From assembly GCA_002709695.1 (NCBI GenBank), contig PAQF01000028.1, forward strand, positions 1-64,000: a stretch of 64,000 bases of DNA, written 5' to 3'. Positions 6,179-12,169 of this stretch are shown here, piece after piece. Source of the stretch: Candidatus Poribacteria bacterium (GTDB lineage: Bacteria; Poribacteria; WGA-4E; UBA9662). Position 1 is the stretch's first letter. Each line of letters begins with the position of its first letter. Under the pieces are notes generated by a model, which saw only the letters and a program-made list of their open reading frames with translations, was not told the DNA's origin and searched no databases. The position numbers and the translations under genes were made by a program.

Positions 6179-6194
6179 AACACCCTCATATAAT
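6167..6194 (+). promoter_or_regulatory. Candidate queG promoter
   Basis: TTGGTA at 6167-6172, 16-base spacer, TATAAT at 6189-6194. A second TATAAT sits at 6197-6202. The signal overlaps the start of the divergent LarA-like gene. A transcript starting near 6202 would favour the ATG at 6245 over the TTG at 6194. Confidence 0.35.
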
Positions 6195-6244
6195 TGTATA
6201 ATTTCCCCAATGTTATCAGAGTATCAGGTGTGTTTGCAAACGAA

Positions 6245-7378
6245 ATGTATCATCAAAAGCTAAGTAAAAAAATCAAAAAGGTTGCTCAGCAAATGGGGTT
6301 TGACCTGGTTGGTATCACTCAGGCAGATCCTCCCAAAATGATCGATCGTTACCAAAAGTGGCTGGATAAAGGATATGCTGGGAAGATGGATTACCTGAAA
6401 CGGCATCTAAATCTGAAGAGGGATCCAAAAACTATACTCTCTGAAGCCAAGTCGGTCATCTCCGTGGGGATGAACTATCATACAATTGAACCCGATCCAG
6501 CACGGAAAATTGATCCATTGCGGGGGCAAATATCACGCTACGCCTGGGGGGATGACTATCATGACATTATACGCACAAAACTTAAAAAACTGGTAAAAAT
6601 TATCGAAAAGATATCGCGAAAAGAAACGCGCAACCGTGTTTTTGTAGATTCCGGACCTGTTTTGGAACGGGAATACGCTAAAAACGCCGGCTTAGGTTGG
6701 CTAGCCAAAAATACCAATTTGATTAATTGGGAAAAGGGGTCGTGGTATTTTCTGGCCGAAATACTAATTGACATTCCGTTACAACCGGATCAAATCGAAC
6801 CTCGAGGCAGCTGTGGAACCTGTACTCTTTGCATAGAAGCTTGTCCGACAGACGCTATAGTTGAACCTAACATTCTGGACTCGCGTCTTTGTATTTCATA
6901 TTTGACAATTGAACTCAAGGAGTCAATTCCTAGGGAAATCCGTTCAAATATGGGTAATTTAATATTTGGATGTGATATTTGCCAAGAAGTTTGTCCGTGG
7001 AATAGCAAAGCTAAACCATCTTCGGAAACAGGATTCCAACCACGGAAAGGCAATTTGCTTCCTAAGCTGACCTCACTAATGAACATGACACAAGAAGAAT
7101 TCAATCGACGTTTCAAGGGAAGCCCAGTTAAAAGGTCGAAACGACGCGGTTTTCTCAGAAATGTGGCAGTTGCTCTCGGCAATTCGAAAGACAAATCTGC
7201 TGTCAATGTGCTTGGGAAGGCATTGAATGACTCGGAACCACTTGTTCGTGGTCATGCTGCTTGGGGGCTAGGGCAGATCGGCGGAGATGACGCAATTCAA
7301 GCACTTAGATCGCGTCTGAAGATCGAAGAAAATCCGGAAATTATTGAGGAGCTAGAAATTGCAATCGATTCAATCTAG
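6245..7378 (+). CDS. queG: Epoxyqueuosine reductase QueG
   Basis: About 377 residues from the ATG at 6245; a longer reading from TTG at 6194 is possible. QueG reduces epoxyqueuosine to queuosine in tRNA using cobalamin and two [4Fe-4S] clusters. The cluster ligands are visible as CGTCTLCIEACP and CDICQEVCPW, with the DSG and YAKNAGLGWLAKNT blocks upstream. The C-terminus holds a HEAT-like repeat (SEPLVRGHAAWGLGQIGG) typical of the long QueG form. The enzyme needs B12, which fits the cobalamin riboswitch found 75 bases downstream, although the riboswitch controls the next operon and not queG itself. Confidence 0.93.
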   Translation: MYHQKLSKKIKKVAQQMGFDLVGITQADPPKMIDRYQKWLDKGYAGKMDYLKRHLNLKRDPKTILSEAKSVISVGMNYHTIEPDPARKIDPLRGQISRYAWGDDYHDIIRTKLKKLVKIIEKISRKETRNRVFVDSGPVLEREYAKNAGLGWLAKNTNLINWEKGSWYFLAEILIDIPLQPDQIEPRGSCGTCTLCIEACPTDAIVEPNILDSRLCISYLTIELKESIPREIRSNMGNLIFGCDICQEVCPWNSKAKPSSETGFQPRKGNLLPKLTSLMNMTQEEFNRRFKGSPVKRSKRRGFLRNVAVALGNSKDKSAVNVLGKALNDSEPLVRGHAAWGLGQIGGDDAIQALRSRLKIEENPEIIEELEIAIDSI

Positions 7379-7452
7379 TAGTATAATGCCTAACATGATG
7401 TATTGATTAAATATTCAGTAATTTTTGTTACATAAAGTTTGTATTCAATTTG

Positions 7453-7650
7453 GTTCAGGTGCTGACGTCTTATACCAGATAATAGGGAAGTTCGGTGAGA
7501 ATCCGGCGCAGCCCCGCTACTGTAATCAACAGGGTTCGAGTCCTAATTTTAGCTCGGATCCACACGCTGGTGTTCGATTATACCACTATTCCTAAACTTG
7601 GAATGGGAAGGTGAACACAGTCCGTTGTTAGCCAGGAAACCTGCCTGAAC
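7453..7650 (+). promoter_or_regulatory. Cobalamin (B12) riboswitch aptamer
   Basis: Conserved aptamer blocks occur in order: AGGGAAGTTCGGTGAGAATC at 7484-7503, GCCCCGCTACTGTAATC at 7511-7527 and the B12 box GCCAGGAAACCTGCC at 7631-7645. A closing P1 helix is visible: GTTCAGG at 7453-7459 pairs with CCTGAAC at 7644-7650. The core between them holds a variable arm around 7530-7600. This is the adenosylcobalamin-type riboswitch class, which turns off downstream genes when cobalamin is bound. It lies on the strand of, and directly upstream of, the propeller/S-component operon. Confidence 0.95.
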
Positions 7651-7729
7651 TGACTAGCGCATTAGCTTTCGTGGGTAAAGTTGCGTTAAAAGAATCGCAT
7701 TTTCATCTGTCTACGTATTGATTCTTTTG

Positions 7730-7766
7730 AGCCAATTTTCCTGACGAAAATTGGCTATTTTTATTT
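7730..7766 (+). terminator. Riboswitch expression platform: rho-independent terminator
   Basis: AGCCAATTTTC at 7730-7740 is perfectly complementary to GAAAATTGGCT at 7746-7756, with a 5-base loop, followed by ATTTTTATTT. It sits between the aptamer and the ribosome site of the first gene, so cobalamin control is probably by transcription attenuation. A second inverted repeat, AAAAGAATC (7688-7696) with GATTCTTTT (7720-7728), lies between aptamer and terminator and ends one base before the terminator stem; whether it acts as an alternative structure cannot be decided by eye. Confidence 0.88.
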
Positions 7767-7790
7767 CTATTCAAAAGTGAGGAGGTTTTG

Positions 7791-8918
7791 ATGAAAATGC
7801 TGCAACTCAGTAAAGTAACGACGGTCATATTTATTATCAGTCTTGGTGTTTCCGCACAAATCCAGAACTTAGCTATAGTTACTAACGGCCTCAAAGATCC
7901 TGGATCGCTCTCAATAATTGATATCAACCAACTAAACATCAAGAAAGCGGTAAAAAATGACATCATTACTACTGGGTCTACTCCTAATGATGTGCAGGTG
8001 CAACAGAATCTAGCTTATGTTGTTAACACCTACAGTAACAACATCCAGATCATCAATTTGCTTGAGCAAAATAGCGTAGGAGAAATTTCGGTTGGTTCCG
8101 ACACCTTGCCAGAAAAGATTGCCTTCGTTGATCCCTTCAAAGCCTACGTCACCTGCAATGAACCAGATCAAGTCGCAGTCCTCAATCTACACACAAAATC
8201 TGTTACTAAAAGAATCCAAGTTCAATCTAAACCTTGGGGGATTACCATAATTAACAAGAAAGCTTACGTTGCCAATTCAGCTGCAGTTACCAACTGGGTG
8301 ACTTTTAAAACGACCTATGGTAATAGTAGTGTATCAGTTATTGATACAACAACTGATCGAGTCATAAAAAAAATTAAGGTAGCAACCAACGCAACAGAAA
8401 TCACAACCGATGGAAACTCTAAGGTGTTAGTTATCTCAACAGGCGATTACGCCATGATACCAGGACAACTAACAATTATAGATGCAAATACTGACGAAAT
8501 TGAAAAAACAGTCAAACTTAAAACTACTCCAGGCGCAATAATTGTTAACCGTAAGCAACAAATTGCTATAATTAATACCAACGCTGGAGCCATGGTTTAT
8601 GATTTGGTCCAAAATAAACTTGTTCGTGACAAAAATAACCCGATCGTTGGATTCTCAGGTGGATTTGGAATGACAATCAATCAGGAGAAAAGTATCTACT
8701 ATGTTTGTATTCCTGATTGGACAGGAGGTGGTCTAGATGAACTTCGTGTCCTCAACTCAAAATATAATATTGTCAAACGGTATCAAGTTGGAAAAGGTGC
8801 CTCTTTTGTCGCAGTCGCACAAATTGAAGGGAAAAACTCGATAGGAGTTTCAAAAATCAATGATCTGTATAAAACAACATGGGGAACAATCAAGCAGAGT
8901 ATGAGCACAAACAAGTAA
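7791..8918 (+). CDS. Secreted YVTN beta-propeller, BtuG-like, under B12 riboswitch
   Basis: 375 residues from the ATG at 7791, which has a perfect AGGAGG five bases upstream (the in-frame TTG at 7788 is too close). An N-terminal signal peptide appears to be cleaved after GVSA. The rest is built of about 45-residue blades such as NLAYVVNTYSNNIQIINL, KAYVTCNEPDQVAVLNL and GNSSVSVIDTTTDRVIKKI. This is the YVTN/surface-layer propeller pattern, which is also the fold of BtuG, the cobalamin-binding surface protein of Bacteroides. BtuG is a lipoprotein; this protein has no lipobox. First gene after the cobalamin riboswitch, ending directly against the next gene. B12 binding is inferred from fold plus regulation. 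Confidence 0.8.
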   Translation: MKMLQLSKVTTVIFIISLGVSAQIQNLAIVTNGLKDPGSLSIIDINQLNIKKAVKNDIITTGSTPNDVQVQQNLAYVVNTYSNNIQIINLLEQNSVGEISVGSDTLPEKIAFVDPFKAYVTCNEPDQVAVLNLHTKSVTKRIQVQSKPWGITIINKKAYVANSAAVTNWVTFKTTYGNSSVSVIDTTTDRVIKKIKVATNATEITTDGNSKVLVISTGDYAMIPGQLTIIDANTDEIEKTVKLKTTPGAIIVNRKQQIAIINTNAGAMVYDLVQNKLVRDKNNPIVGFSGGFGMTINQEKSIYYVCIPDWTGGGLDELRVLNSKYNIVKRYQVGKGASFVAVAQIEGKNSIGVSKINDLYKTTWGTIKQSMSTNK

Positions 8919-8921
8919 GTG

Positions 8922-10706
8922 ATGTATGGTTTTGGTATTAGGTTTTTATGTATTTTGCTACTCTGTTTTTTAGGATGTTTTCGTAAAACAGAACAGACTA
9001 GTTTTAAGGAGTTTTCTGCTAACGTTGAGTTTTTTCAGCGTGGAGCTAAAATTCACCTTCTTGAGCATAATCGGAGACAGCTAAAACACGTTAGTGTTTT
9101 CAACGCAGTAGACAATCAAATTTTGGCTAATCTGGACCTTGGTGGGATAGCTAATAAAACTGAATTGATCTACTTTAGATGGTATAAGGATCAGAACTAC
9201 CAATTCAGGTTTGAGAGCTTAAATGGTGAACAAACTTGGCAGTTGCATACTGCGCCTAATCTTGAACCAGGAGGATCGATCCGAATTGGAGTTCCTTACC
9301 CAGATGCAAACCCGTCCAAAAGTTCGCTCGTTCTTTATGGATCTGAAGTATATGCATCAGTCATGGTTAAAAATGGTTTTGAAGCCCCAACCAATTTTCG
9401 GCTTGAGATTGAAACTCCATTTACATCACCTATTATTCGACAATCATCCTTTATGACTGGATTTGAGGTGTGGCACGATCAATTTAAGCTTAGAATTCCT
9501 GATGAATTTACTTCACTCAATACAAAAATCATAGGACGTGTTTTTTTTGAAGCCCCTAATGGTAAAAACTGGACAAGAACTACAACAATAGAATTACGAT
9601 TAGCTTCAATTCAAGACGTTGTCGAGCAAATCTCAATTGGGGAAGTCCTGATGCCGACTGATGTCAATGGGACTCTTAACCGAAGGCAACGACCAGATGC
9701 GATAAAACTACTCAAAGATAGTGAGCAGCATAATGCTTATATACCAATAGCTTTTCAAGCAGTACGAATTCGGAATCATCTTCCAGAGACGATTCATGTA
9801 GCCGTTTCATCCATTAACCGCGACGTTAACACAAAAAAAACTATTTCTTTTCTAAAACCTCCTAATGAAAACAGTCCGAAATCAAATCAAAGCTTTGCCA
9901 TAATCAGCTTAGTAGGTGAGAGTGTTACAAGTGTGGTTCTTCCGTTTTATTTGAATCCTGCGTTGAAACCAAGAACAGGTCATTACGAACGGCATATCGA
10001 AATCAAAGTTTGGGGAAACGAGATTCCCATCTTTTCTATGACTCGACCTCTTGAAATTGTGAAACCGAATATATATTCGTTAGCTATGGCCGGAATTGCC
10101 ACTATGGTCGCTATTTTTGGTTTGATTGGTTTAATTCGGTTCCACCAAAAAATCTTCGGTTTTTTTTCTACCAAAGAGTTAGTCCTTATCGCGCTTTTCG
10201 CCACCACAATCTTCGTGACTGTAAGTGTACCGACAACACTATTTTTTGCAGTTATCAATGCGCTGCTAGGACCAGCCTCTTTTCTAGTCATTGGTTTTCT
10301 TAATGAAATGCTATACTATGCGTTGCTAACGACTTTAATCATGCTAGTCCGAAAACCATGGACAATAACATTGGTCTCGGCGGTACGAGTTTTGCTTGGT
10401 GGCATTCTCTTAGGCGCATTTACACCTTTCACTCTTGTTTATGTTGGTGTTTCCACTATTTTACTGGAACTCGGTTTTTGGCTGTCCCGCTGGGGTAAGA
10501 ATAGGCTTATACTAGCCTTGGCCTTTGGGTTCTGTGACGCACTTAGCGTTCATATCGACTTTCAGATTAGCATCGCTTTCTATCGACTGTTTTATGCAGA
10601 TTGGTACGTCTGGACCATGATTATTGTTTCTGGATTTGCCTACACTGTCATTGGTGTGTTATTAGGGAAACATATCAGTTTAGGATTACAAACAATTACG
10701 GAATAA
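8922..10706 (+). CDS. Lipoprotein fused to a six-helix ECF S-component-like membrane domain
   Basis: About 594 residues from the ATG at 8922; a GTG at 8919 directly follows the previous stop. The N-terminus is a lipoprotein signal (LLLCFLGC). Residues about 23-385 form an extracytoplasmic, mainly beta-looking region I do not recognise. A single membrane helix (near 390-410) then leads to six hydrophobic segments starting STKELVLIALFATTIFVT, with ALLGPASFLVIGFLNEMLYY and SAVRVLLGGILLGAF. That layout is typical of substrate-binding S-components of energy-coupling-factor vitamin transporters. Under B12 control the likely substrate is cobalamin or a precursor. No EcfA or EcfT gene is in the window, so the energising module would be elsewhere and shared. 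The lipoprotein-S-component fusion is unusual. Confidence 0.65.
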   Translation: MYGFGIRFLCILLLCFLGCFRKTEQTSFKEFSANVEFFQRGAKIHLLEHNRRQLKHVSVFNAVDNQILANLDLGGIANKTELIYFRWYKDQNYQFRFESLNGEQTWQLHTAPNLEPGGSIRIGVPYPDANPSKSSLVLYGSEVYASVMVKNGFEAPTNFRLEIETPFTSPIIRQSSFMTGFEVWHDQFKLRIPDEFTSLNTKIIGRVFFEAPNGKNWTRTTTIELRLASIQDVVEQISIGEVLMPTDVNGTLNRRQRPDAIKLLKDSEQHNAYIPIAFQAVRIRNHLPETIHVAVSSINRDVNTKKTISFLKPPNENSPKSNQSFAIISLVGESVTSVVLPFYLNPALKPRTGHYERHIEIKVWGNEIPIFSMTRPLEIVKPNIYSLAMAGIATMVAIFGLIGLIRFHQKIFGFFSTKELVLIALFATTIFVTVSVPTTLFFAVINALLGPASFLVIGFLNEMLYYALLTTLIMLVRKPWTITLVSAVRVLLGGILLGAFTPFTLVYVGVSTILLELGFWLSRWGKNRLILALAFGFCDALSVHIDFQISIAFYRLFYADWYVWTMIIVSGFAYTVIGVLLGKHISLGLQTITE

Positions 10707-12169
10707 TGCAGAACCAAAGCTCGAAAATCAGGAGATTCAGTGCTATGTATGCTACTTTTTTTACTACATGCATCTTTATTTTTTGTAGCAGTATTGTTTG
10801 TGGCCAGATCGATATTGATTCTATTCTACCGCCATTTTCCAAATTTCAGAGACCTGCACAATTTACTACGATTGCACTCTCTCCTGATAGTAGTCAACTT
10901 GTATTAGGAACGAATTCTGGTTATCTTGCCACTATCAGCACCGTTACCAGAAAAGTAATATGGAAAACTCGAATCTCACAGGGATACATTAAACATGCAA
11001 CTTTTTCTTTGGACGGCAAGCAATTGTACCTCGGTGAACAATCGGCTGATGGATTCATTTTTTGTTATGATGTTTTCAAATCACGAAAACCTAAACTCCT
11101 GTGGCAATATCGTCTTGCTGATGATATCGGTACATCCATGCCGGAAAACCCAGATGCTTACTATGCTTGGATTCAGTATCCCGGTCCATACCGTATTGCT
11201 AATACCAAACAAGGCGATTTAATTGTGGCTGCCGTTCATTCATGGTATGAGGATGGAAAATCTCTGATAAGATCGCAGCTTTATCGATTCGACGCTAAAA
11301 CAGGAAATTTAGTATGGAAGTTTCCGTCCGAAATACCACTTCCAATGATTATCCGCTGGTTCGATTATAGTGATGATGGCCGAACGATTGCTTTCGTTTG
11401 TGATAAATATTCAATCGATCAGCCAATTGGAGATCTAAAACCAGGGTCTCTTTATGCTATCAATGGTGAAACAGGAAAAATTCGATGGGGGCATACTTTT
11501 AAAGCATTTACACCCTATTTTGATCAGGTAACTTTTTGGCGTGGTGTTGCTGTGTCACCTGATGGAGAGTCAATTGGTGTGACAACTGATGATGGACGAG
11601 CCTTCATTTTCTCAGAAGAAAAATTGATTTGGCAGGAGGATCTAGCTACACCAATTGAAATTAGTGGCGTTCCGATAACGGCAACTTCGGGAACAGTTGG
11701 AGCCACAGATGATTTTATGATATTTATTACTGGTGATACCTTCATACCTTATGATTTGCAAAAGGATGTCAAGCGTCCGCCAATGGCACATCCAAAAGGG
11801 CTTACTCTTTTCGGATATGAGTGGAACGGGAAAAAATCTTGGCAATGGAAATTAGAGAATGTGCCGCAAGGGTTACGTATTGACTCATCTGGAAAATACG
11901 CGGCGATTCCGATATCAATGTATGGTCATAAGAACACAGAAATGCCAAATGGTATCTCAATTTTTGATCTAACAACAGAGGGTGAAGGGCTTGACAAATA
12001 TCTACGTACTCACCGACTAGCGGGCCAAATTCCCTATGATATGATTGCATTCAGTCAGAATGGAAGACGGATTGCTGTAGTTGAAACAGTAAGTTCTGCT
12101 CGTGGAAAAGAACAGCGAGGTAAAAACCAAGTTCACATCATTACTCCCAAAATAGAAGATACAAACTGA
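10706..12169 (+). CDS. Secreted PQQ/WD40-like beta-propeller protein, third gene of B12 operon
   Basis: 487 residues from the ATG at 10706, which overlaps the preceding stop as TAATG and suggests translational coupling. A second possible ATG is at 10745. A signal peptide (FTTCIFIFCSSIVCG) precedes the mature part. Repeated blades include FTTIALSPDSSQLVLGT, LYRFDAKTGNLVWKF and LYAINGETGKIRWGH, the DxxTGxxxW pattern of PQQ-like/quinoprotein propellers. No catalytic residues of alcohol dehydrogenases are evident, so it is more likely a binding or scaffold protein. Its role beside a BtuG-like propeller and an S-component is unknown; a second extracytoplasmic cobalamin-handling protein is a reasonable guess. 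Confidence 0.75.
   Translation: MQNQSSKIRRFSAMYATFFTTCIFIFCSSIVCGQIDIDSILPPFSKFQRPAQFTTIALSPDSSQLVLGTNSGYLATISTVTRKVIWKTRISQGYIKHATFSLDGKQLYLGEQSADGFIFCYDVFKSRKPKLLWQYRLADDIGTSMPENPDAYYAWIQYPGPYRIANTKQGDLIVAAVHSWYEDGKSLIRSQLYRFDAKTGNLVWKFPSEIPLPMIIRWFDYSDDGRTIAFVCDKYSIDQPIGDLKPGSLYAINGETGKIRWGHTFKAFTPYFDQVTFWRGVAVSPDGESIGVTTDDGRAFIFSEEKLIWQEDLATPIEISGVPITATSGTVGATDDFMIFITGDTFIPYDLQKDVKRPPMAHPKGLTLFGYEWNGKKSWQWKLENVPQGLRIDSSGKYAAIPISMYGHKNTEMPNGISIFDLTTEGEGLDKYLRTHRLAGQIPYDMIAFSQNGRRIAVVETVSSARGKEQRGKNQVHIITPKIEDTN

Follow-up and report, generated by a model that had tools for sequence, protein, structure and literature searches.

The stretch of DNA described here (the window) comprises the first 64,000 nucleotides of contig PAQF01000028.1 from a metagenome-assembled genome (MAG) of Candidatus Poribacteria (GCA_002709695.1), which is 5.2 Mb in size and 96% complete. 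On the forward strand of the window a cobalamin riboswitch is followed by three genes, here called P1, P2 and P3, which to judge from sequence very likely form an operon for the uptake of vitamin B12 or other corrinoids. The aptamer (7440-7662) matches the complete RF00174 model, positions 1 to 189, with 92.3 bits and an E-value of 1.3e-21 (gathering cut-off 31.5 bits), and it is the single cobalamin riboswitch that an Rfam search with this model finds in the genome; its start, given as 7453 in a preliminary description made from the letters of the window, is corrected to 7440 by this match. Leader folding places a terminator-like hairpin of 11 pairs followed by a run of T (ATTTTTATTT, 7730-7756) after the aptamer, as the putative expression platform; because terminator-like sites are not enriched in the region (4 against 3.5 expected by chance), this assignment rests on position. 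P1 (7791-8918) begins with the ATG at 7791, has AGGAGG upstream, ends with its stop codon at 8918 and encodes a secreted BtuG-like propeller of the seven-bladed type. P2 (8922-10706, with an alternative GTG start at 8919) encodes a lipoprotein in which periplasmic beta-sandwiches are fused to a membrane domain resembling the S-component of energy-coupling factor (ECF) transporters, and P3 (10706-12169) encodes a second secreted propeller, of the PQQ/WD40-like kind. The genes are nearly gapless, P3 being translationally coupled to P2 through the overlap TAATG at 10704-10708, so that the packing of three genes behind an aptamer and terminator stands as it was originally described.

The arrangement is conserved well beyond this genome. 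We compared 59 related Poribacteria genomes, and in addition 61 related loci in named genomes. P2 was detected in 56 of the 59, and 53 of these 56 have a cobalamin riboswitch 5' of P2 on the same strand, in 52 cases within 2.2 kb. A single riboswitch of this class is the rule (56 of 59 genomes); G005 has two, whereas G019 and G045 have none. In G002, G008 and G018 the riboswitch precedes P1 instead of P2, as does the second riboswitch of G005; because the riboswitch stands before P2, or before P1 where it does not, across the relatives, its association with the trio is order-wide. Nearly all of the 61 loci have P1 and P3 together with P2, and the genes that flank the trio differ from family to family. 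All 61 loci belong to Candidatus Poribacteria according to a contig scan whose search patterns were themselves derived from Poribacteria, which leaves absence elsewhere unproven, and a tblastn search found no relative of the P2 domain on plasmids. The preliminary description had named a lack of conservation behind B12 riboswitches, and structure or profile matches to families of unrelated function, as findings that would speak against it; where such checks could be run, none refuted its interpretation.

Two relatives show the trio taken apart. G005 splits the system, with one riboswitch directly before P2 and P3 and the second before P1 elsewhere (loci L116 and L027). In G014 (L114), transposase and fatty-acid desaturase genes lie between P1 and P2, and the riboswitch is thus 5.9 kb from P2.

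P1 is predicted to be a propeller with a signal peptide (AlphaFold, pLDDT 87). By sequence, its nearest solved structures are BtuG chains (phmmer, E-value 2e-10) and an archaeal YVTN protein. A Foldseek search with the model, the structural comparison that had been proposed at the outset, gave BtuG for all of the first 16 matches, with E-values from 3e-20 to 3e-16 and a TM-score of 0.70, at a sequence identity of about 20%; the PDB entries 8BLW, 8OKV, 8P97, 8BMX and 3DSM are structures of BtuG (PMC10404256). Escherichia coli YncE follows well behind at about 2e-10, and this gap between BtuG on the one side and YncE and WD40 folds on the other disfavours the identification of P1 as a generic propeller. 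PF16819, a family tied to B12 loci (PMC13398666), is matched by 14 of 19 P1 orthologues. The signal peptide of P1 comes without the lipobox that, together with an export signal, marks BtuG as a surface lipoprotein. Dockerin domains are present on 15 of the 19 orthologues, a sorting tail on two, and cohesin proteins adjoin P1 in several relatives; apparently, P1 is attached to the surface by protein pairing, dockerin with cohesin in the relatives, and not by lipid. Neither the trio nor those conserved neighbours that were examined include a TonB receptor (BtuB), so that P1 does not stand beside BtuB as BtuG does. At four loci (L113, L114, L115 and L116) cohesin-domain proteins directly follow the riboswitch and P1, and we speculate that they might build a non-cellulosomal surface assembly which captures the vitamin.

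P2 opens with a signal peptide and a lipobox (FLGC, 8922-8978) whose Cys19 is invariant in 23 sequences. In its AlphaFold model (pLDDT 84), beta-sandwiches fill residues 34-380 (9021-10061), for which Foldseek finds Ig-like matches only, and a transmembrane helix, TM0, spans residues 384-406 (10071-10139); six helices follow (10161-10703). TM0, with a positive loop after it, is modelled as bringing the chain back to the cytoplasm, and the charge pattern of the six-helix domain, with positive loops on the predicted cytoplasmic side, would leave both its N- and C-terminus inside. This domain is likely, though not certain, to be a remote homologue of the YkoE-type S-components, a reading that comes from profile comparison: the profile of the P2 domain aligns with that of five YkoE-type proteins at a score of 36.8 (hhalign, E-value 5.8e-5), compared with at most 20.8 for 100 column shuffles, 16.5 for the reversed profile and 13.8 to 20.0 for four other membrane families. 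Both alignments are shallow; against a lone YkoE sequence the probability is just 0.9%, the signal emerging with the five-sequence alignment, and the window domain by itself meets PF09819, the YkoE family, at an E-value of 0.0013, below the cut-off. The S-component-like character first proposed for these helices has in this way gained a profile match to lean on. A profile search of full P2 against the PDB and a phmmer search with its C-terminal domain gave no match. Helix five carries a near-invariant Cys-Asp pair in a GxCDA motif, with the cysteine in 39 of 40 sequences; in P2 it is Cys538 (10533-10535), which might conceivably coordinate cobalt, like its counterpart in BtuM.

Conservation within the trio is highest for P3 (67% mean column identity), which is probably a periplasmic accessory or a second binding protein, though its role is a guess. 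In relatives (L045-L095), P3 has at its N-terminus a domain similar to the first one of P2: the two score 33.5 over only 27 aligned columns, while shuffles reach no more than 18.2. P3 of the window is without this domain.

The genes for an ECF motor, missed in the preliminary description, are encoded elsewhere in the genome. There is one EcfT (PF02361, 75 bits), as in 57 of the 59 related genomes, with the Arg-Gly coupling motifs RLRG and ECRG; among the relatives RLRG and E(S/C)RG are largely conserved, the second motif being RA in some. In several relatives EcfT is adjoined by a gene for a fused two-domain ATPase, EcfA-A', whose orthologue in the present genome lies on another contig (G000:C57; 44% identity, E-value 6e-108, next match 2e-43), exceeds the cut-offs of ECF_ATPase_1 and ECF_ATPase_2 (TIGR04520, TIGR04521) and has its Walker and signature motifs. 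None of the motor genes is linked to the operon, and the present genome also has EcfT and the ATPase at separate places. Their presence means that an S-component such as P2 need not act alone, and the suggestion of an ECF-type transporter is largely supported. CbiM is absent from all 59 genomes, which discards cobalt transport by CbiMNQO. Neither BioY nor PF12822, the general S-components, has a match over its cut-off in these genomes, which argues against an EcfT devoted to biotin or general S-components and leaves P2 as the only S-component candidate seen, other S-component families, such as those for riboflavin, thiamine and queuosine, not having been searched. An ECF mechanism with P2 as its S-component appears likely. 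CbiC, a marker of B12 synthesis, is missing from all 59 genomes, consistent with B12 auxotrophy.

We consider it probable that the trio is a B12-repressed cobalamin or corrinoid uptake operon of Poribacteria that works in the following way. At low intracellular cobalamin, the riboswitch would let transcription proceed past the terminator. Exported P1 would capture the corrinoid outside the cytoplasm, in relatives apparently while held at the surface by dockerin-cohesin pairs, and one of the TonB-dependent receptors, which are numerous, would presumably provide the passage across the outer membrane. P2 would be lipid-anchored at the inner membrane. On the periplasmic side its beta-sandwich domains would probably receive the vitamin or dock a propeller, and the six-helix S-component at its C-terminus would move the vitamin across the membrane, powered by EcfT and the fused EcfA-A' in place of BtuF and BtuCD; P3 may assist in the periplasm. 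The hand-off from propeller to S-component is what we infer from this combination of parts. With somewhat less assurance, we favour a broader proposal: P2 would found a new family of ECF S-components with a lipid-anchored periplasmic receptor of their own, a BtuG-like surface propeller would supply the ECF motor of a diderm phylum with cobalamin, and the combined route would take the place of BtuF and BtuCD and be the only B12 importer that most Poribacteria have.

Several observations weigh against these proposals. P1 of the window itself has no PF16819 match, and P3 matches generic PQQ/WD40 propellers only. All members of the P2 family stay below the curated S-component cut-offs, only 2 of 40 reaching PF09819, and those weakly, and among the top 50 matches listed by Foldseek for full P2 there are beta-sandwiches only. 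Finally, G002, G018 and G019 have EcfT without P2, possibly owing to MAG incompleteness.

The explanation closest to ours, which we hold to be distinctly less probable yet credible, keeps the same anatomy, B12 regulation and ECF mechanism and changes the substrate to another corrinoid or precursor, such as cobinamide, pseudo-B12 or a lower-ligand base. BtuG binds cobinamide besides cobalamin (PMC10404256), ECF-CbrT imports both (PMC5997447), and four genomes have, close to the operon, full-length DUF71/COG2102 genes (L036-L039) with ENGEFH, the signature of DUF71-B12, which is predicted to serve pseudo-B12 salvage (PMC3541065). These substrates are indistinguishable by sequence, however, and broad corrinoid use is equally likely. 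Another DUF71 gene (8160-8765 of locus L026) stands in line with the trio, and these DUF71 genes speak for our own reading as well. It is rather improbable that P2 works as a solitary carrier of the BtuM kind while the motor serves something else. The scattered motor genes would agree with this, as would the cysteine of the six-helix domain, which recalls the invariant cysteine of BtuM (PMC6072759); but 57 of the 59 genomes retain one EcfT, for which the families searched yielded no client besides P2, and the hosts of BtuM, apart from one exception, have no ECF module (PMC6072759), whereas EcfT and a fused EcfA are present here.

A different route altogether, in which P1 to P3 merely bind corrinoid and B12 enters through a BtuF/FecCD-like importer, seems to us quite unlikely. 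The locus in question (L140, G000:C28:87192-93240) lies on the same contig, about 85 kb from the operon, and consists of a TonB receptor, two HmuY genes, a BtuF-like binding protein, the only strong FecCD permease of the genome and a HupE/BNR-repeat fusion. The best NCBIfam model for the receptor is TonB-B12, far below its cut-off. Because of the two HmuY genes we read L140 as a probable heme uptake locus; it has no riboswitch, and strong FecCD permeases (the BtuC family) occur in only about 19 of the 59 genomes and are missing from G001, a member of the same genus that retains the riboswitch operon, which together with the HmuY genes argues against this locus as a general B12 importer. The earlier statement that no BtuB, BtuC, BtuD or BtuF was seen holds for the operon, in which no BtuC-family FecCD is encoded, but an importer of the BtuF/FecCD type does exist elsewhere on the contig. 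Least probable of all, by a small step, is that the trio is no transporter and that the riboswitch governs propellers with another B12-related function, for example sensing or surface adhesion. Such a role would suit the dockerin, cohesin and sorting domains that orthologues of P1 and neighbouring proteins carry, and propellers are common and promiscuous; it fits poorly with the S-component homology of P2, borne out by its controls, and with the ranking of BtuG above all other propellers for P1.

An uptake operon of the kind we favour would share features with several known systems. The remote homology of P2 to YkoE, the S-component of the hydroxymethylpyrimidine/thiamine transporter YkoEDC (PDB 5EDL; PF09819), extends across the entire six-helix domain; unlike YkoE, P2 falls below the Pfam cut-off, is regulated by a cobalamin riboswitch and has its S, T and A genes unlinked. 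In the YkoEDC motor a single gene encodes both ATPase domains, as is the case for the fused ATPase of Poribacteria. With ECF-CbrT of Lactobacillus (PMC5997447), P2 has in common a six-helix S-component and the expected EcfT and EcfA-A' motor for corrinoid import. Its sequence similarity is to YkoE only; P2 differs further in its lipid anchor, roughly 360 residues of periplasmic beta-sandwich and an extra helix, and the Poribacteria system in its diderm host, partner propellers and fused ATPases. BtuM (PMC6072759) is likewise an S-component-like B12 carrier of diderms with a conserved cysteine and both domain ends in the cytoplasm, but it is a protein of about 22 kDa without extra domains that occurs where ECF modules are absent. 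The BtuB-BtuG systems of Bacteroides (BtuG1/2/3; PMC6143338, PMC10404256) resemble the operon in their B12-riboswitch locus and in a secreted propeller, P1 being nearest to BtuG structures; in Poribacteria BtuB is absent from the operon, P1 has no lipobox and its orthologues often bear dockerins, and the inner-membrane step is assigned to a predicted S-component rather than to BtuCDF. The latter also provides riboswitch-controlled B12 import across the inner membrane, but is not encoded with the Poribacteria operon.

BtuG has been reported from Bacteroidetes only (PMC6143338), and B12 import in Poribacteria was earlier proposed to be TonB-driven, with no carrier named (PMC5087111, PMC8546597). 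In the open-access literature we found no report that joins BtuG-like propellers with an ECF transporter, in agreement with the initial impression that no system of this composition had been described. The operon thus names a candidate B12 carrier, conserved order-wide, for these sponge-associated and marine bacteria; it would extend BtuG-like capture beyond Bacteroidetes and join two principles of B12 uptake not known together, the surface propeller and the ECF transporter. An S-component with a built-in periplasmic receptor could also serve as a model for how toppling S-components are reached by their substrates when the cell has an outer membrane. The hosts are uncultured, yet the genes are testable in E. 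coli.

Some minor features remain. About 50 nt 5' of the aptamer lies a promoter-like site (TTGCAA-17-TATAAT, 7359-7387), a consensus match alone and not above chance. On a 5.3 kb contig of another genome (L112, G021:C394), possibly misbinned, RRXRR/HNH and Cas4-Cas1 fusion genes follow a cobalamin riboswitch. Directly 5' of the window's riboswitch is a queG gene with C-terminal HEAT repeats (6194-7378), an arrangement found in this genus only among the neighbourhoods read; QueG is a cobalamin enzyme.

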